DNA of 64,000 nt from assembly GCF_002911665.1 (NCBI RefSeq), contig NZ_MTBP01000002.1, forward strand, positions 1,116,001 through 1,180,000, in the 5' to 3' direction. Source of the stretch: Actinomadura rubteroloni (GTDB lineage: Bacteria > Actinomycetota > Actinomycetes > Streptosporangiales > Streptosporangiaceae). Shown piece by piece: positions 11,176 to 22,223 of this stretch (its first letter is position 1; every line of letters begins with the position of its first letter). Both the position numbers and the translations under genes were made by a program. The notes beneath the pieces were generated by a model. It worked only from the letters and a program-made list of their open reading frames with translations, was not told the origin of the DNA and searched no databases.

Positions 11176-12108
11176 TCACCAGCGCGCGGCGCCCGCGAAC
11201 GACGTCGGGGCCGGGCGCAGGCCGAGGACGGTCCGGGCCGCCGTGAGGTCCAGCGTCCGCTCGACGGCCAGGTGCGCGAGCGCGTACCGGGTCAGGCGCG
11301 GCGGTTCGCTGCGCCCGGCGAGCAGGTACGCGCCCTCGGCCGCCGCCGCGAGCGGGCGCAGCGCGGCGTGCGGCAGGTAGACCGGACGGGCGCGGACGCC
11401 CCGCTCGGCGAGGATCGCGCGCAGGGCGTCGTCCAGCGCGACCGGCTCGGCGTCGGCGACGTTGAACACGCCGCGCACCGCCGGGCCGGTCGCGGCCAGC
11501 ACGCAGGCGGCGGTGAGGGTGGCGATCGAGGTGAGGCTGACGCGCTGGCGGCCCGTCCCGACGGCGGGCAGCACCGGGCCGCGCACGGCCGCCAGCACGC
11601 GCGGCAGCAGCGTCGTGTCGCCGGGGCCGTAGACCGCGTGCGGACGCAGGACGACCGCGTCCGGCCGCGCGGCGAGGACCGCCCGCTCGGCGGCGGCCTT
11701 GGACGCGCCGTACGCGTCGGGGTACCGCGCGACGGGCGCTTCGTACTCCTTCGCCCGGACGGTCGGCCGGCGCGGGTCGTACACGCTGGCCGTGCTCACG
11801 TGGACGAACCGGGCCGCCGGGAACGCCGCGAGCACCCGGCGCGTCCCGAGCAGGTTGGCGGCGAACAGCCCGGCCGCGCTCCCCCAGTCCGTGACGCTCC
11901 CCGCGCAGTGGACGACGGCGTCGACGTCCGGCGCGTCCGGCGGCGGCCCGGCCGTCATGTCCCACGACCGGTACGGCGCGCCGCCCAGATGCCCGGCGGG
12001 GACGCGGGCGCGGCGCCCGAACGCGAGCACCGCGACGCCGTGTTCGGCCAGCGCCCGGCACACCGCCCCGCCGACGAACCCGGACGCGCCCGTCACCGCG
12101 ACCCTCAT
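11176..12108 (-). CDS. NAD(P)-dependent reductase, OleD-like (3-beta-HSD family)
   Basis: This 310-residue extended short-chain dehydrogenase has the Rossmann motif TGASGFVGG at 6-14 and the catalytic YGASK at 133-137. Segments HCAGSVTDWGS, LRPHAVYGPGD and EPPRLTRY correspond to positions I associate with OleD, which reduces 2-alkyl-3-ketoacids to beta-hydroxyacids. It is the last gene of the five-gene operon; its ATG overlaps the ligase stop as ATGA. The frame remains open upstream, but that part is in the shadow of the ligase. A generic sugar epimerase is possible, but the neighbouring OleA-like and OleC-like genes favour an OleD role (inference). Confidence 0.8.
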   Translation of the reverse strand: MRVAVTGASGFVGGAVCRALAEHGVAVLAFGRRARVPAGHLGGAPYRSWDMTAGPPPDAPDVDAVVHCAGSVTDWGSAAGLFAANLLGTRRVLAAFPAARFVHVSTASVYDPRRPTVRAKEYEAPVARYPDAYGASKAAAERAVLAARPDAVVLRPHAVYGPGDTTLLPRVLAAVRGPVLPAVGTGRQRVSLTSIATLTAACVLAATGPAVRGVFNVADAEPVALDDALRAILAERGVRARPVYLPHAALRPLAAAAEGAYLLAGRSEPPRLTRYALAHLAVERTLDLTAARTVLGLRPAPTSFAGAARW

Positions 12109-13592
12109 CGGACCAGCTCCCGGAGCGCGGCCCGGTCCAGCTTGCGGGACCGTCCGGTGCGCGGCAGCGCGGGCAGCACGACGATCTCGTCGGGCAGCGC
12201 GGCGTGGTCCAGGACGCCCGGGAGGCGGCGGCGCAGCGCGGCGGGCGTCGCCGTCCCGGTGATCGCGAGGACGACCCGCTCGTCGCCCGTCGCGGGGTCG
12301 GGGACGCCCGTGATCGCCGCCTCGTCCACGCCGGGCAGCGCCGCGACCGCCGGTTCGTACAGGCCGGGGTAGAGGTTGAACTTGCCGCGGATCAGCATGT
12401 CCTTCTTGCGGCCGGTGAGGACGAGCCGTCCCCCGTCCAGCCGGGCGAGGTCGCCGGTCGCGAGCCGGTCCAGCGGCGGGTCGCCGAGGTAGCCCCGGCA
12501 CAGGTTCGGGCCGGACAGCAGCAGTTCCCCGTCGGGCGCGAGCGTCGCGTCCGCGAGCGGCGTGCCGACCAGGTCGCCGTCCGCGCCGGACGCCGTGTGC
12601 GCCAGTTTCTCGGCGGCCGTCGCGAGCGCCACCGGCAGGATCTCCGTCATCGCGTACACCGACAGCACCTCGGCGGCGGGCGCGGCGGCGACGGCGCGGC
12701 GCAGGATCGCGGCCGGGGCGGGCGCCGCGCCCAGCAGGACGTACCGGAGCGAGTCCGGCAGCCGGGGCGCGACGTCCAGGATCTCCGCGAGATGGACCGG
12801 CACGCAGAACGTGTGCGTCGCGCCGCGCGCGGCCAGGTCCCGCGCGAACCGCTCCGGGGACCCGCCGAGCGGCGGCAGCGACCAGCGCGCCCCCGCGATC
12901 AGCGCGGGCAGGCCCAGCATGAGCTGGTCGGTGTGGACGACGTCGCCCGGCCCGAGCGGCAGCCGCGCCCGGAACAGGTCGAGCGCGGCGGCCAGCGAGC
13001 CCTGCGTGTGGACGACCGCGCGCGGGTGCTCGGTCGTGCCCGACGTGAAGATCACGGCGGCGGGGGCGTCCGGATCGCCGTCCGCTCCGGGCTCGGGCGA
13101 CGGCCCGCGCTCCAGCGCCGCGAGCGACAGCGCACCGCGCGGCACGCCCGGCAACCATCGTCCGGCCCGGACGTGATGCGGAATCCCGAGGTCGGCGAGG
13201 TTCGGCAGCAGCAGCCCGCGCCGCCGCGCCCACGCACGGACGGGCGCCAGCCGCGTCCCGGCGTACAGCAGCGACTCGGCCGCCGACCAGCGCGGACGCG
13301 CCAGCCGCAGCCGCGCCGCGAACATCTCGGGCCCGGCCCCCGGGTCGGCGAACACGACCACGCCGCCCGCCGCGACGACGCCGAGCGCCAGCACCAGAGA
13401 CTCCGGCGACGGCCGCACCGAGAACAGCATCCGGTCGCCGTCGCGCAGCCCCGCCGCGAGCAGCCCGTGCCGGACGGCGAGCACCCGCCGCCGCAGCTCC
13501 CCGAAACTCAGCGGCGCCCCGTCCGCCGCGACGAGCGCCACGGCGTCCGGCGTCGCAGCGGCCTGATCGAGCAACCGACGAACCAGCGTCAC
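12105..13592 (-). CDS. AMP-dependent synthetase/ligase, OleC-like
   Basis: This 495-residue ANL-superfamily enzyme has a P-loop IFTSGTTEHPRAVV, a variant of the usual TSGTTGxPK, the acidic core motif YAMTEILPVA, the hinge region TGDLAR...LTGRKKDM, and the A10 motif PRTGRSRKLD with the catalytic lysine at about 484. The segment VVVFADPGAG resembles the VDPGMG region of OleC beta-lactone synthetases. By analogy it would adenylate a beta-hydroxyacid and close a beta-lactone; ordinary acyl-CoA or acyl-AMP ligase activity cannot be excluded. The GTG at 13592 overlaps the P450 stop by four bases. Confidence 0.82.
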   Translation of the reverse strand: MTLVRRLLDQAAATPDAVALVAADGAPLSFGELRRRVLAVRHGLLAAGLRDGDRMLFSVRPSPESLVLALGVVAAGGVVVFADPGAGPEMFAARLRLARPRWSAAESLLYAGTRLAPVRAWARRRGLLLPNLADLGIPHHVRAGRWLPGVPRGALSLAALERGPSPEPGADGDPDAPAAVIFTSGTTEHPRAVVHTQGSLAAALDLFRARLPLGPGDVVHTDQLMLGLPALIAGARWSLPPLGGSPERFARDLAARGATHTFCVPVHLAEILDVAPRLPDSLRYVLLGAAPAPAAILRRAVAAAPAAEVLSVYAMTEILPVALATAAEKLAHTASGADGDLVGTPLADATLAPDGELLLSGPNLCRGYLGDPPLDRLATGDLARLDGGRLVLTGRKKDMLIRGKFNLYPGLYEPAVAALPGVDEAAITGVPDPATGDERVVLAITGTATPAALRRRLPGVLDHAALPDEIVVLPALPRTGRSRKLDRAALRELVR

Positions 13593-14737
13593 GACGCCTC
13601 CCGAGCGGGCTGTACGAGCAGGTGGCGGTAGGCGGGGATCAGGACGTTGCGGGCGGCGGTGCGGGCGGTGACAGTGAGGGGCGCGGCGTCCAGCAGCGTT
13701 CCGGCGACGGCTCGGATCTCGGCCTGCGCGAGCGGGTAGCCGAGGCAGAAGTGCGGCCCGGCGCCGAACCAGAGCCGCCGCAGCTCCGGCGGGTGCGGAC
13801 GGTCCAGGTCGAACGGGCCGTACGCGCGGCAGCAGTTGTGGGTCGCGATGAGCACGCGGTCGCCGGGCTTGACCGCCACTTTGCCGATCTTCGCCGGACG
13901 GGCGACGCTGCGGAGCATCACCGGCGTCGGCGTCGTGACGCGCATCGCCTCGTCGATCGCCGGGTCCAGCAGGTCCCGGTCGCGGGCGACGGCCGCAAGC
14001 GTCCCGGTGTCGTGCAGCAGGGCGAACAGGCGCGGCAGCAGCGTCGCGACCGTCTCGGTGCCGGTGAGGAAGAACGCCCCGGCCGCGCCGCGCGCCTCGT
14101 CCGCCGAGAGGCCGAGCGCGCGCATGCGGCCCATGACCGTCCGGTCGTCCCCGGCGGCGTAGGACGCGGCGGCGGCGTCGCCGAGCGGGTCCAGGACGGC
14201 GCGGGCGCGGGCGACCTGCGCCGGGGACAGCGTCCGGGTGCGGAGCGAGACCATCGCGACGATCCGCTCGCCGTCGGCGAACAGCCGCCGGTGGTCGACG
14301 TCCGGCAGCCCGATGACGGTGGCGATCACGGCGCCCGCGACGGTCTTGGCGACGTCCACCAGGTCCACCGCCGCGCCCCGGTCGAGGCGGGCGGCGAGGT
14401 CGGCGAGCGGCCCGGCCAGCACGCGCCCGCACAACGCGGCCGTGGACGCGGGCGTGAACAGCCCCGTCAGCCGGGCGCGCAGCGCGCGATGCGCCTCCCC
14501 CTCCATGTTGAGCAGGACGGACGGCCCGAGCACCGGCGTCCACAGGTCCCCCGGCGAGCCGGGCCCGTCCTTCCGGAACACGGTTCCGTTCATGAGGACG
14601 TCCCGCGCCGCCGCCGCGTCGTTCACCACCACGCCGACGCCGGGCACGCGCACGACCGGCCCGGCCTTGGCCAGCCCGCGCAGGAACGGGTACGCCACCG
14701 GATGCGCGGCCAGGTACAGCCGCCGCTCCCAGTTCAC
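13589..14737 (-). CDS. Cytochrome P450 of the Ole-like operon
   Basis: This 382-residue P450 has the heme motif WFGAGPHFCLGYP with the cysteine ligand at about 331, the ExxR helix in IDEAMRV, and the oxygen-activating helix segment FFLTGTETV. It is soluble, with no membrane anchor. The GTG at 14737 overlaps the glycosyltransferase stop by four bases and gives a normal P450 N-terminus. Its position between the condensing enzyme and the ligase suggests that it oxidises an intermediate or product of the pathway (inference). The electron donor is not in the operon; the nearest ferredoxin gene is at 24107. Confidence 0.92.
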   Translation of the reverse strand: MNWERRLYLAAHPVAYPFLRGLAKAGPVVRVPGVGVVVNDAAAARDVLMNGTVFRKDGPGSPGDLWTPVLGPSVLLNMEGEAHRALRARLTGLFTPASTAALCGRVLAGPLADLAARLDRGAAVDLVDVAKTVAGAVIATVIGLPDVDHRRLFADGERIVAMVSLRTRTLSPAQVARARAVLDPLGDAAAASYAAGDDRTVMGRMRALGLSADEARGAAGAFFLTGTETVATLLPRLFALLHDTGTLAAVARDRDLLDPAIDEAMRVTTPTPVMLRSVARPAKIGKVAVKPGDRVLIATHNCCRAYGPFDLDRPHPPELRRLWFGAGPHFCLGYPLAQAEIRAVAGTLLDAAPLTVTARTAARNVLIPAYRHLLVQPAREAS

Positions 14738-15486
14738 CGGACGTCCACGACGTCGGGCCGGTAGCGGTGGTCGGCGTACCAGCCGAGCGTCCGGACGAGC
14801 CCGAACGCCCGCAGCCGCCGCACCGACCCGTGCACGACCACGTCGGGCCGCAGCCCGTACGCCGAGGTCAGCCGCCGGACGCGGTTGACGAGCGCCCGGT
14901 CCTCGTGGACGTCCTCGATCCGCGTGCGCGGGAACCCGCCCGACAGCTCGTACAGCGCGGCCGTGATCGCCATGTTGCAGCCGGGCATCATCACGTACGG
15001 GCCGAGCGCGAGCGGGTCGCGGTTGCCGGGCCGCAGCCGTCCGAACAGCGCGGCGACGCCGATCACGGCGGGCAGCAGCCGCCGCTCCCACAGCCGCAGC
15101 GGGAACTCGTCGGTGCGCGGGCGCAGCGGGCCGCTCACCATCTCCAGCCCGTCGTCGAACGCGCGCTTGACCGCCGCGACCCAGTCCGCCGCGGGCAGGC
15201 AGTCGGCGTCGGTGCGGGCCAGATGGGTCGCGCCGGAGCGGATCGCGTGCCGCATCCCGGTGTCGGCGGCCGAGCCCGTCCCCTTCTCGGCCTCACCGAC
15301 GAGCCGCAGGTCCAGCTTCGGGTGCGCGGCGGCGAACGCGCGGACGACGGCGGCCGTCCCGTCCCGGCTGCCGTTGTCCACCACCAGCACGGTGAAGTCC
15401 GGGTCGGTCTGCTCGGCGAGCCGCGCCAGCGTCGCGCCGATGGACCGTTCCTCGTCGTAGGCCGGGACGACCGTCCAGAGCCGCAT
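14734..15486 (-). CDS. Family 2 glycosyltransferase
   Basis: The 250-residue protein is a GT-A fold family 2 transferase. It begins LWTVVPAYDEERSI, has VLVVDNGSRDGT, the DxD-type metal motif RTDADC near residue 115, and an acceptor-site IEDVHEDRALV near 205. There are no clear membrane helices. The start overlaps the stop of the condensing enzyme gene (TGATG). A transferase inserted between OleA-like and OleC-like genes is unusual and suggests that a sugar is added to the pathway product, though the donor and acceptor cannot be read from the sequence. Confidence 0.88.
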   Translation of the reverse strand: MRLWTVVPAYDEERSIGATLARLAEQTDPDFTVLVVDNGSRDGTAAVVRAFAAAHPKLDLRLVGEAEKGTGSAADTGMRHAIRSGATHLARTDADCLPAADWVAAVKRAFDDGLEMVSGPLRPRTDEFPLRLWERRLLPAVIGVAALFGRLRPGNRDPLALGPYVMMPGCNMAITAALYELSGGFPRTRIEDVHEDRALVNRVRRLTSAYGLRPDVVVHGSVRRLRAFGLVRTLGWYADHRYRPDVVDVR

Positions 15487-16487
15487 CACAGCTCCGCGAA
15501 CAGCACGCCGAGGCTGACGCCGCCCGCCAGCCCGAGCAGCGCGACCCGGTCGCCGGGACGGCAGCGGCCCGTCCGCAGCGCGGTCGCGAGCTGGAACGGC
15601 AGGCTCGCCGACGCCAGGTTCCCGTGCTCGGGCAGCGTGACGACGAGCTTGCCCGCCGGGATCTCCAGCATCGCCCGCAGCAGTTCCAGGTAGGGCATCG
15701 TCACCTGGTGGACGGCCACGATCGCGAAGTCGTCCCAGGTCAGGCCGGTCTTCTCCAGCGCCGTCCGGAAGATCTCCGGCCCGGCGGCGACGAAGACGTC
15801 CTTCAGCCGCCGGCCGTCGCCGCTGAAGTAGGTGAACTCGGGGTCGCGCGGATGCATGGACCCGCCGCCCGGGAGCGTTCCGACACGCCACGCGGACGAG
15901 ACGGCGGCGAAGTCCCGGTAGAAGATCCCGCCGTCGGGGGCGGCCTCCAGCAGCACGGCCGCGCCGCCGTCCGACAGCGTGTAGCCGGCGAAGGCGTCCA
16001 CGAACGCGGCCCGGTCGGCGACGTTCCACCGGATCGCCCGCGACGGGGACTCGCCCGTGCAGACGAGCGCCCGCTCGGCCTGGCCCGTGCGGATCAGCGC
16101 TTCCGCCGTCTGGACGCCGTTGAGGAGGCTGTTGCAGGCGTTCTTGACGTCGAAGACCGGGCAGGACGCGCCGAGTTTGGCCGCGACGATGTGCGCGGTC
16201 GCCGGTTCGATGAGGTCCTGCGACGCCGACCCGAAGACGAGCAGGTCCAGCGCGTCCGGGGTGAGCCCGCGGTCGGCGAGGGCCGTGCGGGCGGCGGCGA
16301 CCGCGAGGTCGGACGCCTGCTCGCCGGGCCCGAGGACGTGCCGGGACCGGATCCCGGTCATCCGCTCCACGATCGTCGGCAGCGGCCGGAACCCGCCGCT
16401 CGCCGCCGCGACGCGGGCCTCCACCTCGGCGCTGGTCAGCGTGGCCGCGGGCAGGTGCGCCGCCGCCGCGGTGATGCGGGCTCTCAT
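15486..16487 (-). CDS. Thiolase-fold condensing enzyme, OleA-like (KAS III family)
   Basis: This 333-residue protein carries a Cys-His-Asn triad: C118 in VKNACNS, H260 in VAVHQVT and N290 in EHGNLAS. The spacing (142 and 30 residues) equals that of Xanthomonas OleA (C143, H285, N315) and differs from E. coli FabH (132 and 30). Glutamate 94 in DLIEPATA aligns with OleA Glu117, the residue needed for head-to-head condensation of two acyl-CoAs. FabH has no glutamate there. It is the first gene of the operon, with GAGAGG ahead of the ATG at 16487. The alternative is a FabH-like starter enzyme. Confidence 0.87.
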   Translation of the reverse strand: MRARITAAAAHLPAATLTSAEVEARVAAASGGFRPLPTIVERMTGIRSRHVLGPGEQASDLAVAAARTALADRGLTPDALDLLVFGSASQDLIEPATAHIVAAKLGASCPVFDVKNACNSLLNGVQTAEALIRTGQAERALVCTGESPSRAIRWNVADRAAFVDAFAGYTLSDGGAAVLLEAAPDGGIFYRDFAAVSSAWRVGTLPGGGSMHPRDPEFTYFSGDGRRLKDVFVAAGPEIFRTALEKTGLTWDDFAIVAVHQVTMPYLELLRAMLEIPAGKLVVTLPEHGNLASASLPFQLATALRTGRCRPGDRVALLGLAGGVSLGVLFAEL

Positions 16488-16625: not shown

Positions 16626-16673
16626 TGAGTACGCAAAATAACCCGGTTTGTCGTGAGTACGAGAGCTGAGTAC
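16626..16673. repeat. Three direct copies of TGAGTAC upstream of the Ole-like operon
   Basis: TGAGTAC occurs at 16626-16632, 16654-16660 and 16667-16673, all in the same orientation, 140-190 bases before the first gene of the operon. Three 7-mers in 48 bases are unlikely by chance in this composition. They could be regulator binding sites; the regulator is unknown. Confidence 0.5.
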
Positions 16674-18665: not shown

Positions 18666-19877
18666 ATGACCGAGTCCGCCGACATCCCGCGCGACTTCGA
18701 CTTCGCCGCCGCCGACCTGCTGGCCGAACGGGTCCCGCTCGCCGAGTTCGCGGCGCTGCGCGCGTCCGGACGTCCCTGGTGGAACCCTCAGCCGCGCGGC
18801 ACGACCGGCTTCGACGACGACGGCTTCTGGGTCGTCAGCAAGCACGCCCATATCCGCGCGATCAGCCGCGACCACGAGTTGTTCTCCGCGAACGCCAACG
18901 GCGTCGTCGTCCGGTTCAACGGCGTCGACCCCGACGAGCTGGCGCTCCAGCGCGAGGCCCTGCTGCTGAACCTCGATCCGCCCAAGCACACCAAGCTGCG
19001 CCGGATCGTCGCGCGCGGCTTCACGCCCCGCGTCATCGACGGGCTGCGCGGCGCCCTGGCCGAGCGCGCCGACCGGATCGTCGATGCCGCGCGGGCGAAA
19101 AGCGGCGGCGACTTCGTCTCCGAGGTGGCCGCCGAGCTGCCGCTCCAGGCGATCGCCGACCTGCTCGGCGTCCCGCAGGACGACCGGGGACGGCTGCGCG
19201 ACTGGTCCGACCGGATGCTCGGCGAGGAGGACCCGGCCGTGCCCGCCGCCGAGCTGGTCGGCTACGCGATGGGCCTGGCCGAGCGGCGGCGGGCCTGCCC
19301 GGCGCACGACATCGTGACCCGGCTCGTCCAGGCGGACGTGGACGGACGCGGCCTCACCGACGACGAGTTCGGCTACTTCATGATCCTGCTGGCCGTCGCG
19401 GGCAACGAGACGACCCGCAACGCGATCACCCACGGCATGATCGCCTTCCTGGAGAACCCGGACCAGTGGGAGCTGTTCAAGGCCGAGCGCCCCGCCACGA
19501 CGGCCGACGAGATCATCCGCTGGGCCACGCCCGTCACCGCCTTCCAGCGGACGGCCACCGAGGACACCGAGCTGGGCGGCGTCCCGATCCGCGCGGGCGA
19601 CCGCCTCGCGCTCTACTACAGCTCCGCGAACTTCGACGAGGACGTCTTCGAGGCTCCCGAAACGTTCGACATCACGCGCGACCCGAACCCCCACCTGGCC
19701 TTCGGCGGCACCGGCGCCCACTACTGCCTGGGCGCCCACCTCGCCCGGCTGGAGGTCGCGCTGATCTTCGAGGCCGTCGCCGACCGCATGCCCGGCATCC
19801 GCGCCGCCGGACGCCCCGAACGGCTGCGCTCGGCGTGGGTCAACGGCATCCGGACGTTCCCCGTCGCGTACGCGTGA
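18666..19877 (+). CDS. Cytochrome P450, CYP125-like
   Basis: The 403-residue P450 has the heme motif FGGTGAHYCLGAHLAR with the cysteine at about 354 and the I-helix motif VAGNETTRN. The C-terminal ERLRSAWVNGI closely follows the pattern of CYP125, the mycobacterial enzyme that oxidises the terminal carbon of cholesterol side chains. A steroid or branched-lipid terminal hydroxylase is therefore likely, although no cholesterol-degradation cluster is seen here. A GGGAGGGAG ribosome site precedes the ATG. The 3Fe-4S ferredoxin at 24107 is of the type that reduces such P450s. Confidence 0.9.
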   Translation: MTESADIPRDFDFAAADLLAERVPLAEFAALRASGRPWWNPQPRGTTGFDDDGFWVVSKHAHIRAISRDHELFSANANGVVVRFNGVDPDELALQREALLLNLDPPKHTKLRRIVARGFTPRVIDGLRGALAERADRIVDAARAKSGGDFVSEVAAELPLQAIADLLGVPQDDRGRLRDWSDRMLGEEDPAVPAAELVGYAMGLAERRRACPAHDIVTRLVQADVDGRGLTDDEFGYFMILLAVAGNETTRNAITHGMIAFLENPDQWELFKAERPATTADEIIRWATPVTAFQRTATEDTELGGVPIRAGDRLALYYSSANFDEDVFEAPETFDITRDPNPHLAFGGTGAHYCLGAHLARLEVALIFEAVADRMPGIRAAGRPERLRSAWVNGIRTFPVAYA

Positions 19878-20119
19878 ATCGGACGATGTGACGTTCGTCC
19901 CGTACTCGGAACTAACGTAGTTGACGGAAAGCGACTGATTCCGGTCTCCCGGGCCGCCCGGGTTGCGTCCGGCCTTCCAAACACTCTTAGACACCCTGCC
20001 CAATACGGGGTCGCCGGGTACCGTAAGGTCTGATTTCGACATCCACTCGCGGGGACTCCGGTGCGGACGCGCAGGGCGGCCACGCGACGGACGGGAGTGA
20101 CTCGTGACAAGGGGCTTGC

Positions 20120-21415
20120 GTGGCTGAGGCAGTTGAGCCGTCGGATCGTCCACTGCGCGTGGCCCTGCTCTCCTACCGGAGCAAGCCGCACTGCGGCGGC
20201 CAGGGCGTGTACGTGCGGCACCTGAGCCGCGAACTGGTCGATCTCGGGCACCGCGTCGAGGTGTTCTCCGGGCAGCCGTACCCGGACCTCGACCGCGACG
20301 AGATCACCCTGACGAAGGTCCCGTCGCTGGACCTCTACCGCGACGACGACCCGTTCCGGACCCCGGCGCGCGAGGAGTTCCGCGACTGGATCGACGTCCT
20401 GGAGTTCGCCCACATGAAGTCGGGCGGCTTCCCCGAGCCGCTGACGTTCAGCCTCCGCGTGCTGCGCGAGCTGCGCCGGCGGCGGCGCGACTTCGACGTC
20501 GTCCACGACAACCAGGTCCTCGGCTGGGGCAACCTCGCCATCCCCCGGACCGGCCTGCCGATGGTCACGAGCATCCACCACCCGATCAGCGTGGACCGGC
20601 GCATCGAGCTGGAGGCCGCAGAGAACGGCCTCGCCCGGTTCGGCAAGCGCCGCTTCTACAGCTTCGTCGGGATGCAGGCGCGGGTCGCGCGGCGCGTCGG
20701 CCCGGTGCTGACGGTGTCCGGCTCGTCCAAGTTCGACATCGTCCGCGACTTCCGCGTGGACCCGTCCGACATCGAAATCCTTCCGCTCGGCGTGGACACG
20801 TCCGTCTTCCATCCGCGCGGCGAGCGCGTCCCGGGCCGGATCGTGGCGATGGCGAGCGCCGACGCCCCGATCAAGGGCGTGGACGTCCTGCTGCGCGCCG
20901 TCGCCAAGGTCGCCACCGAGCGTGACGTTCATCTCGTCGTCGTCAGCCGGCCCCGCGAGGACGGCCCGACCGAGCGCCTCGTCCGCGAGCTGGCCCTCGG
21001 CGATCGGGTACGGTTCGTGAGCGGCATCAGCGACGATGAGCTGGGCGAGCTGCTCGCCTCCGCGGAGATCGCGGTGGTCCCCTCCCGGTACGAGGGCTTC
21101 TCGCTCCCCGCCGTCGAGCACATGGCGTCCGGGACTCCGCTGGTCGCGAGCCGGGCGGGCGCGCTGCCCGAGGTCGTCGGCGACGCGGCGCCGCTGGTCG
21201 AGCCCGGCGACGTCGAGGAGCTGGCGGCGGTCCTGCTGCGGCTGCACGACTCCCCCGCCGAGCGGGAGCGGGTCGGCGCGGCGGGCCTGGAGCGCGTCCT
21301 GGAACGCTACGCCTGGCGCGCCGTGGCGCAGGCCACCGTCGACCACTACCGCGCCGCGATCGAGCGGCGGGACTACCTGCGGCGGGCCGCGGCCGGGCGC
21401 ACGTCCGCGCGTTGA
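20120..21415 (+). CDS. GT4-family glycosyltransferase
   Basis: This 431-residue GT-B protein has an N-terminal acceptor domain with GGQGVYVRHLSRE and a C-terminal nucleotide-sugar domain with PSRYEGFSLPAVEHMASG and the EPGDVEEL region, typical of GT4 retaining transferases. It is the first gene of a three-gene plus-strand unit with a methyltransferase and a prenyltransferase-like protein. A GTG start at 20120 is used. The product is unknown; the conserved trio suggests modification of a lipid or cell-surface metabolite (inference). Confidence 0.9.
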   Translation: MAEAVEPSDRPLRVALLSYRSKPHCGGQGVYVRHLSRELVDLGHRVEVFSGQPYPDLDRDEITLTKVPSLDLYRDDDPFRTPAREEFRDWIDVLEFAHMKSGGFPEPLTFSLRVLRELRRRRRDFDVVHDNQVLGWGNLAIPRTGLPMVTSIHHPISVDRRIELEAAENGLARFGKRRFYSFVGMQARVARRVGPVLTVSGSSKFDIVRDFRVDPSDIEILPLGVDTSVFHPRGERVPGRIVAMASADAPIKGVDVLLRAVAKVATERDVHLVVVSRPREDGPTERLVRELALGDRVRFVSGISDDELGELLASAEIAVVPSRYEGFSLPAVEHMASGTPLVASRAGALPEVVGDAAPLVEPGDVEELAAVLLRLHDSPAERERVGAAGLERVLERYAWRAVAQATVDHYRAAIERRDYLRRAAAGRTSAR

Positions 21416-21416
21416 G

Positions 21417-22212
21417 ATGGAGGGGCCGCCCCGGCGGCCCCCGTACGGAAGGAGCACGACCCTGCTGACCGTGGATTTCCAGCGGTTCCGCGTGGCACCC
21501 GGCGAACGCGTCCTGGACATGGGCTGCGGCGCCGGACGGCACGCGTTCGAGCTGTACCGCAGGGGTGCCGACGTGGTCGCCTTCGACCTCGACCCCGGGG
21601 AGCTGGACGGCGTCGAGAAGATGTTCGGCGCGATGCGGCTGGAGGGCGAGGTGCCCGCCGGGGCCGCCGCGACGACCGTCCAGGGCGACGCCCTGGACCT
21701 GCCGTTCCCCGACGACCACTTCGACAAGATCATCGCGTCCGAGGTGCTGGAGCACATCCCCGACGACATGCGGGCGATGCGCGAGCTGCTGCGCGTCCTC
21801 AAGCCGGGCGGGCGCCTCGCGGTGACGGTGCCGAGCTGGCTGCCCGAGCGGCTGTGCTGGGCGCTGTCGGAGGACTACCACACCGCCCCCGGCGGGCACG
21901 TCCGCATCTACACGCGGGCGGAGCTGGAGGCCAAGCTGAAGTCCCTCGGGTTCCGGGTCGGGGGGCACCACCACGCCCACGGCCTGCACGCGCCCTACTG
22001 GTGGATCAAGTGCGCGGTCGGCGTGAACAACGACGGGCACCCGCTGGCGAAGGCCTACCACCAGGTGCTCGTCTGGGACATCATGAAGCGCCCGCTGGCG
22101 ACCCGCCTCGCCGAGCGCGCCCTGAACCCGGTGATCGGCAAGAGCGTCGTCGTGTACTTCACCAAGCCGGCGAACCCCGAGCGTCCCGCCGAGGCGGACA
22201 GGGAGATCGCGG

Positions 22213-22223
<11 letters not shown>
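21417..22223 (+). CDS. Class I SAM-dependent methyltransferase
   Basis: The sequence contains motif I VLDMGCGAGRHAFELY, the acidic motif II end AFDLD and ASEVLEHIPDDM, followed by VLKPGGRLAVTVP: a complete UbiE-like methyltransferase fold. The start is uncertain. The ATG at 21417 lies one base after the upstream stop but has no ribosome site. A good GGAAGGAG at 21447-21454 points instead to CTG at 21462 or GTG at 21471, where the conserved LLTVDF begins. It overlaps the next gene by 11 bases. Substrate unknown. Confidence 0.88.

Follow-up and report, generated by a model that had tools for sequence, protein, structure and literature searches.

A region of Actinoplanes atraurantiacus carrying genes for OleA, a glycosyltransferase, OleC, a cytochrome P450 and OleD was published in 2020, with a glycosylated beta-lactone as the predicted product (PMC7064751). 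In this work, we analyzed a window of 64,000 nucleotides from the genome of Actinomadura rubteroloni (contig NZ_MTBP01000002.1, positions 1,116,001 to 1,180,000), which contains an operon with the same five domain types and, set beside the published description of the Actinoplanes region, the same absence of OleB. The five-domain set and the beta-lactone guess are already in print for one organism (PMC7064751); in the open-licence PMC literature we found no other paper on the gene order of the window or on its product. Within that literature, the breadth of the operon, its window-type order, the correction concerning its ligase, its natural dissections in relatives and its candidate operator are apparently new. 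The operon encodes a five-gene pathway that is widely conserved among Actinomadura and its soil-dwelling relatives, and its product is probably an unusual oxidised lipid that bears a sugar.

The operon (positions 11176-16487 of the window, minus strand) comprises five overlapping open reading frames (ORFs) placed head to tail, which code for a condensing enzyme (KS), a GT2 glycosyltransferase, a P450, an AMP-forming acyl ligase and a short-chain dehydrogenase/reductase (SDR), in the order KS-GT2-P450-ligase-SDR (table 1). The KS and GT2 genes overlap by 1 base and the remaining three junctions by 4, 4 and 4 bases, as would fit one translationally coupled operon. All five overlapping genes had been pointed out in an earlier note on this DNA, and Pfam and NCBIfam confirmed their classes (KAS III, GT2, P450, AMP-binding and epimerase/OleD-like SDR).

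As that note had proposed, the five-gene order was searched for in other genomes, the named loci counted here being the best 80 of 423 relatives from a KS scan of genome contigs. The full order recurs in 70 of these 80 loci, which is far beyond chance. The remaining 10 are KS-P450-SDR (three loci, all Nonomuraea), KS alone, KS-GT2-ligase, KS-ligase, an inverted ligase, KS-GT2-P450 (on a contig of 5.5 kb), a two-piece ligase match and a locus, on a contig of 7.6 kb, with no match to the SDR. Among the named relatives, Actinomadura rayongensis is closest to the window (KS 98%), and the 80 loci come from Actinomadura, Actinocorallia, Catellatospora, Hamadaea, Thermomonospora, Streptosporangium, Planobispora, Planomonospora, Nonomuraea, Sphaerisporangium and other genera. 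Because the operon is common in Actinomadura and recurs in Catellatospora, Hamadaea, Streptosporangium, Planobispora, some Nonomuraea and other genera, many species could be producers of a lipid not yet described.

KS matches at E 1e-60 or better were found in 65 of 200 same-family genomes, at 69 places, 51 of them with 65-100% identity and 18 with 40-48%. Thirteen of the 18 fetched loci of the latter group hold a conserved cluster of a different kind, PKS-KS-OleC-OleD-OleB-like (hereafter PKS-ole), with 2224-2564 aa of a reducing polyketide synthase (PKS) that is truncated by the locus edge. In a phylum sample of 396 genomes, KS matches past 1e-65 were confined to the window's genome and two others. 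Both of those loci (L085 and L086, 42-50% identity) read KS-GT2-ligase-x-SDR; the x gene of L085 falls just under the Pfam P450 cut-off (20.2 vs 22.8 bits) and that of L086 clusters with it. GT2 is present in 51 genomes of the genus, counting that of the window, and absent from at least five among those listed (178 no-match genomes were not itemised).

The KS has the triad C118, H260 and N290, with the OleA-type spacings of 142 and 30 residues, and the glutamate of its LIEPATA motif (E94, followed by P95) aligns to OleA. Reading E94-P95 as the equivalent of E117 is based on the role of that residue in OleA (PMC7064751). All five residues are kept in 80/80 rows, the rows here and below being the window plus those named loci with a gene above thresholds of 50% identity and 85% length. 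The OleA spacing and glutamate picked out in the earlier note were borne out. The same note had set the phylogeny of the KS, OleA against FabH, as a test. On our tree, which has two PDB rows and five KAS III rows from the window's own genome (found with tblastn) and leaves out the long row L223, 12 OleA rows form one clade (100/100), eight FabH-type rows another (100/98) and the window group its own (97/91). The KS is therefore neither a FabH nor a canonical OleA, but stands beside both. It scores 173 bits with the OleA model NF006720, below the cut-off of 285 and level with PRK09352 (174 bits), a test weakened by the KS of a PKS-ole cluster also lying under that cut-off (145.9 bits). Structural comparison gave a near tie between OleA and FabH, and is weak since the alignment held rows of both.

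The earlier note had also read the ligase as OleC-like, and this did not hold. D398 and K484 are kept in 70/70 rows and K397 in 69/70. The ligase scores 72 bits with the Xanthomonas-type OleC model of NCBIfam and 138 with a general long-chain acyl-CoA ligase model. In the 396 phylum genomes, 23 places are listed for the OleC model at 211-538 bits, the floor being set by the listing threshold of E 1e-60; most of the 19 that were refetched show OleA/OleB/OleD-type neighbours, and the OleC of one PKS-ole cluster reaches 554 bits. Of the 17 matches to this model in its own genome the ligase is the 15th, and the same search found no OleC ortholog there. On a first tree the window-type ligases form a clade (100/99) apart from the OleC-type clade (100/100). 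After 12 of the closest ordinary ligases were added (from 15 nearby ligase stretches, of which L277, L278 and L280 yielded no ORF under the motif filter; six near-duplicate rows were dropped), the window-type clade was still separate (100/100), and the OleC, OleBC and PKS-cluster ligases together made up one clade (100/100).

The A8 hinge and the A10 lysine have established roles in acyl ligases. The A10 motif P[VM]DxRHxxK is found in 18/18 OleC-type, 0/13 window-type and 0/8 reference ligase rows, and KD at A8, which resembles that of acyl-CoA synthetases, in 0/18, 13/13 and 7/8, respectively; in one OleC-type row (L217) the hinge D is present and the K is not. This signature, P[VM]DxRHxxK without KD, is empirical and was defined in this analysis on the 18 OleC-type rows. 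When a window-type ligase profile was run against seven OleC-bearing genomes, OleC was the best non-self match in one (G081), the third-best in G131, the sixth in G097 and not among the matches listed in the other four; 150 candidates were scored in six of the seven genomes and matches were listed to E 1e-15, so that non-listing is no proof of dissimilarity.

The SDR was taken in the earlier note as OleD-like, and OleD is its best NCBIfam match, at 121 bits against a cut-off of 580 (a PKS-cluster OleD scores 357). It is 31-36% identical to three OleD and to six PKS-cluster or similar SDRs, and its Tyr and Lys are kept in 73/73 rows. The heme Cys of the P450 is kept in 76/76 rows. The TDADC motif of the GT2 is conserved, and its confident GT-A model comes closest to sugar transferases such as WrtF and PcManGT, which does not indicate the acceptor. 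No OleB-type hydrolase occurs among the five operon genes, and no OleB ortholog was found in the window's genome, the best match there to a PKS-cluster OleB-like protein being 81.8 bits at 32% (475 bits in G131); this supports the absence of OleB noted earlier.

A dyad, TGAGT-N6-ACTCA, recurs upstream of the KS gene. In 81 upstream regions it has 24 exact matches, and 38 at up to one mismatch; the sites are mostly from one genus, and hence the regions are not independent. Of 25 control draws with shuffled halves, the best 12 patterns were listed, and those among them other than the dyad had 0 matches; control spacings of 3-11 gave at most one exact and four near matches. In 40 same-genus genomes, the pattern TRAGTGNNNNTACTCA has 28 matches in 26 genomes, against seven for the reversed control pattern, and 25 of the 28 fall 112-187 bp before a KS gene. 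At about one per genome and mostly ahead of this operon, the dyad suggests a dedicated regulator, for which it would be the candidate operator. BldM was considered as that regulator and set aside, the dyad being unlike the BldM consensus as given in PMC4125116.

Judging from the gene and residue patterns, we tentatively favor a pathway, started by the OleA-like KS, to a glycosylated, hydroxylated, alpha-branched beta-hydroxy-acyl lipid with a mycolate-like core, and not to a beta-lactone. The substrates, the order of steps and the product that we infer are the following. The ligase would convert a fatty or other carboxylic acid into acyl-AMP and then acyl-CoA. C118 of the KS would receive an acyl group, and E94, which as in OleA is probably supplied by the partner subunit, would remove the alpha proton from a second acyl-CoA, yielding a 2-alkyl-3-oxoacyl product with no decarboxylation. 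The ketone would then be reduced by the SDR, the P450 would hydroxylate, and the GT2 would add a sugar from an NDP-sugar. With greater reserve, it is conceivable that, next to the OleA-initiated pathways to olefins and beta-lactones, the operon stands for a third one, with a hitherto unrecognised acyl-ligase family, a glycosylated mycolate-like lipid in actinomycetes other than the mycolate-makers and its own single-target operator.

Several results weigh against this reading. By phmmer, a FabH is a slightly better match to the KS (135.6 bits) than Xanthomonas OleA is (118.2 bits). The ligase does not strictly group with ordinary ligases, the outcome that the earlier note had named as fatal to its own proposal; its clade is a third one, which on both trees branches on the same side as OleC, away from FadD/MenE/EntE and other ordinary ligases. 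The ligase is 24-33% identical to OleC-type rows, slightly more than the 21-28% seen with ordinary ligases, and its second-best NCBIfam match, PRK09274, is a model that a PKS-cluster OleC passes too. Because of this position, slight identity excess and model match, a lactone-forming role could have survived in the ligase without the signature, and common descent of its clade with OleC is possible. The dyad is absent from the window's own genome, which has three direct TACTCA half-sites instead, about as far upstream of KS as the dyad is in many relatives (table 1). Finally, three Nonomuraea (L211, L212 and L214) keep KS-P450-SDR and a relocated ligase and have no GT2 genome-wide (best match 51-54 bits, compared with 449 in a fourth that has GT2), which suggests that glycosylation is not essential everywhere.

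The relocated Nonomuraea ligase (L272-L274, 699-713 bits) lies beside GNAT-fold and ATP-grasp proteins (Pfam on L273 only), a setting that may point to an amino-acid rather than a sugar head group; the locus sits downstream of a phosphoglucomutase-family gene. Other relatives divide the operon differently. In the g66/g67 genomes, KS and ligase share one locus (alone in L040, with GT2 and ligase as a single ORF in L038 and L039) and GT2-P450-SDR a second (L078-L081), beside genes that also flank the operon of the window or of relatives. GT2 and ligase form one ORF of 777-807 aa in L038, L039 and L195. These split, fused and reduced loci indicate that KS, P450 and SDR form a core that can be separated from the rest, that some loci lack the sugar step and that GT2 and ligase can work as one protein. 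In G089, the KS is at its usual site (L035, on a contig titled as a metagenome-assembled genome, MAG) and GT2-P450-ligase-SDR on another contig (L082), reflecting either a rearrangement or a binning artefact.

An oxidised, glycosylated beta-lactone, with the ligase as a divergent beta-lactone synthetase that closes the ring, was the proposal of the earlier note and has been predicted in print for the same domain set (PMC7064751). The OleA-like KS, the OleD-like SDR and the absence of OleB agree with it, and it was retained since the ligase clade adjoins OleC on the trees. However, such a product is unsupported here because the ligase is outside the OleC clade, is without the A10 signature of OleC and shares its KD with two-step ligases, and no OleC ortholog was found in the genome; the low OleC-model score and the single genome of seven with OleC as top match to the ligase profile (150 candidates scored in six of them) also count against it. 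We consider it unlikely. The published prediction likewise rests on the ligase being an OleC (PMC7064751), which is unsupported for the ligase of the window.

We regard as less probable still a long-chain ketone or secondary-alcohol glycoside, in which the beta-keto acid made by the KS would lose CO2, the SDR would reduce the ketone, P450 and GT2 would tailor the product and the ligase would only feed acyl-CoA. OleA products are beta-keto acids that readily decarboxylate, and the separation of KS and ligase from GT2-P450-SDR in the g66/g67 genomes (L079, L081 and L078 for the latter) would suit this scheme, but the SDR is nearest to OleD, annotated for 2-alkyl-3-oxoalkanoates. It is improbable that the KS forms no C-C bond and instead, as a CerJ-like acyltransferase or a priming enzyme, puts an ester or amide onto a glycosylated core. 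KAS III relatives do include acyltransferases, and the ligase of three Nonomuraea has GNAT-fold and ATP-grasp neighbours; yet E94 and the 142/30 spacing are the OleA set in all rows, and PDB chain 4v2p, which we take to be CerJ, matches the KS at 51 bits, far more weakly than OleA or FabH. A role in modifying or using steroids is very improbable, for although some relatives have further P450s and a thiolase adjoining (that of L033 exceeds the steroid 3-ketoacyl-CoA thiolase cut-off with 635 vs 515 bits, and similar ones occur in 9 of 41 displayed named loci and in 7 loci of a second set), the displayed Catellatospora, Hamadaea and Streptosporangium-type loci have no such thiolase, and AACnnGTT, presumably a KstR-like core, precedes KS in only 3 of 80 regions, which also speaks against control by KstR. 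The split and fused versions, together with the presence of two pathways in one genome (see below), make the question tractable by single deletions and lipidomics.

As to the surroundings of the operon, a second, divergent P450 (34-41% identical to that of the operon) lies upstream of KS in 42 of the 80 named loci (e.g., L137), and is absent in A. rayongensis (L136) and, beside KS, in the window. A thiolase, an MBL-fold protein, a P450, a GT4 and a methyltransferase flank the operon in relatives (L033, L037, L137, L183 and others), and the corresponding flank of the window (18666-22223) has a P450, a GT4 and a methyltransferase. In the Streptosporangium-type group (L197, L199, L200, L202-L214, L043-L050 and L069), the gene after the SDR is of the LytR-CpsA-Psr (glycopolymer transferase) type (Pfam on L043 only).

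Table 1. Features of the operon and of the region upstream of it, in window coordinates
Feature	Position	Strand	Details
OleA-like KAS III condensing enzyme (KS)	15486..16487	(-)	333 aa; C118/H260/N290 + E94
GT2 glycosyltransferase	14734..15486	(-)	250 aa from ATG, with two more residues upstream in ORF P0002; TDADC motif; GT-A fold, pLDDT 87.6
Cytochrome P450	13589..14737	(-)	382 aa; GTG start; heme-Cys motif FGAGPHFCLG intact
AMP-forming acyl ligase	12105..13592	(-)	495 aa; A8 RKKDMLIRGKFNLYP; A10 Lys484; outside OleC clade
OleD-like SDR	11176..12108	(-)	310 aa; YGASK
Three direct TACTCA half-sites	16626..16672	(-)	144-185 bp upstream of KS start

Among described systems, the A. atraurantiacus region has, according to PMC7064751, an OleA-like enzyme with 29% identity to Xanthomonas OleA and the order OleA, GT, OleC, P450, OleD, which resembles L085 and L086 and differs from that of the window. 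Its ligase is named OleC in that description (PMC7064751), whereas the ligase of the window fails the OleC motif and clade tests. The lipstatin and nocardiolactone clusters, as described in PMC7064751 and generally known, are like the window in their OleA- and OleD-like enzymes and in the absence of OleB, but unlike it they have OleC (PMC7064751).

The PKS-ole clusters (L051, L052 and L055-L065) contain the KS group nearest to the window type, at about 41-48% identity. Unlike the window, they have a large reducing PKS, OleC (554 bits), OleD (357 bits) and an OleB-like hydrolase, and no GT2 or P450; the models were run on L061 only, the other loci being assigned by clustering. Their content suggests that they make polyketide-derived olefins or beta-lactones. 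They coexist with the window-type operon in G028, G131 and G081, which argues for the latter being a distinct pathway. With the OleABCD olefin pathway, represented here by actinobacterial clusters among L216-L234 and by the Xanthomonas OleA of the PDB, the operon shares the OleA catalytic residues, an SDR that best matches OleD and an AMP-forming ligase; it differs in that its KS forms its own clade, its ligase lies outside the OleC clade, OleB is missing and a P450 and a GT2 are added.

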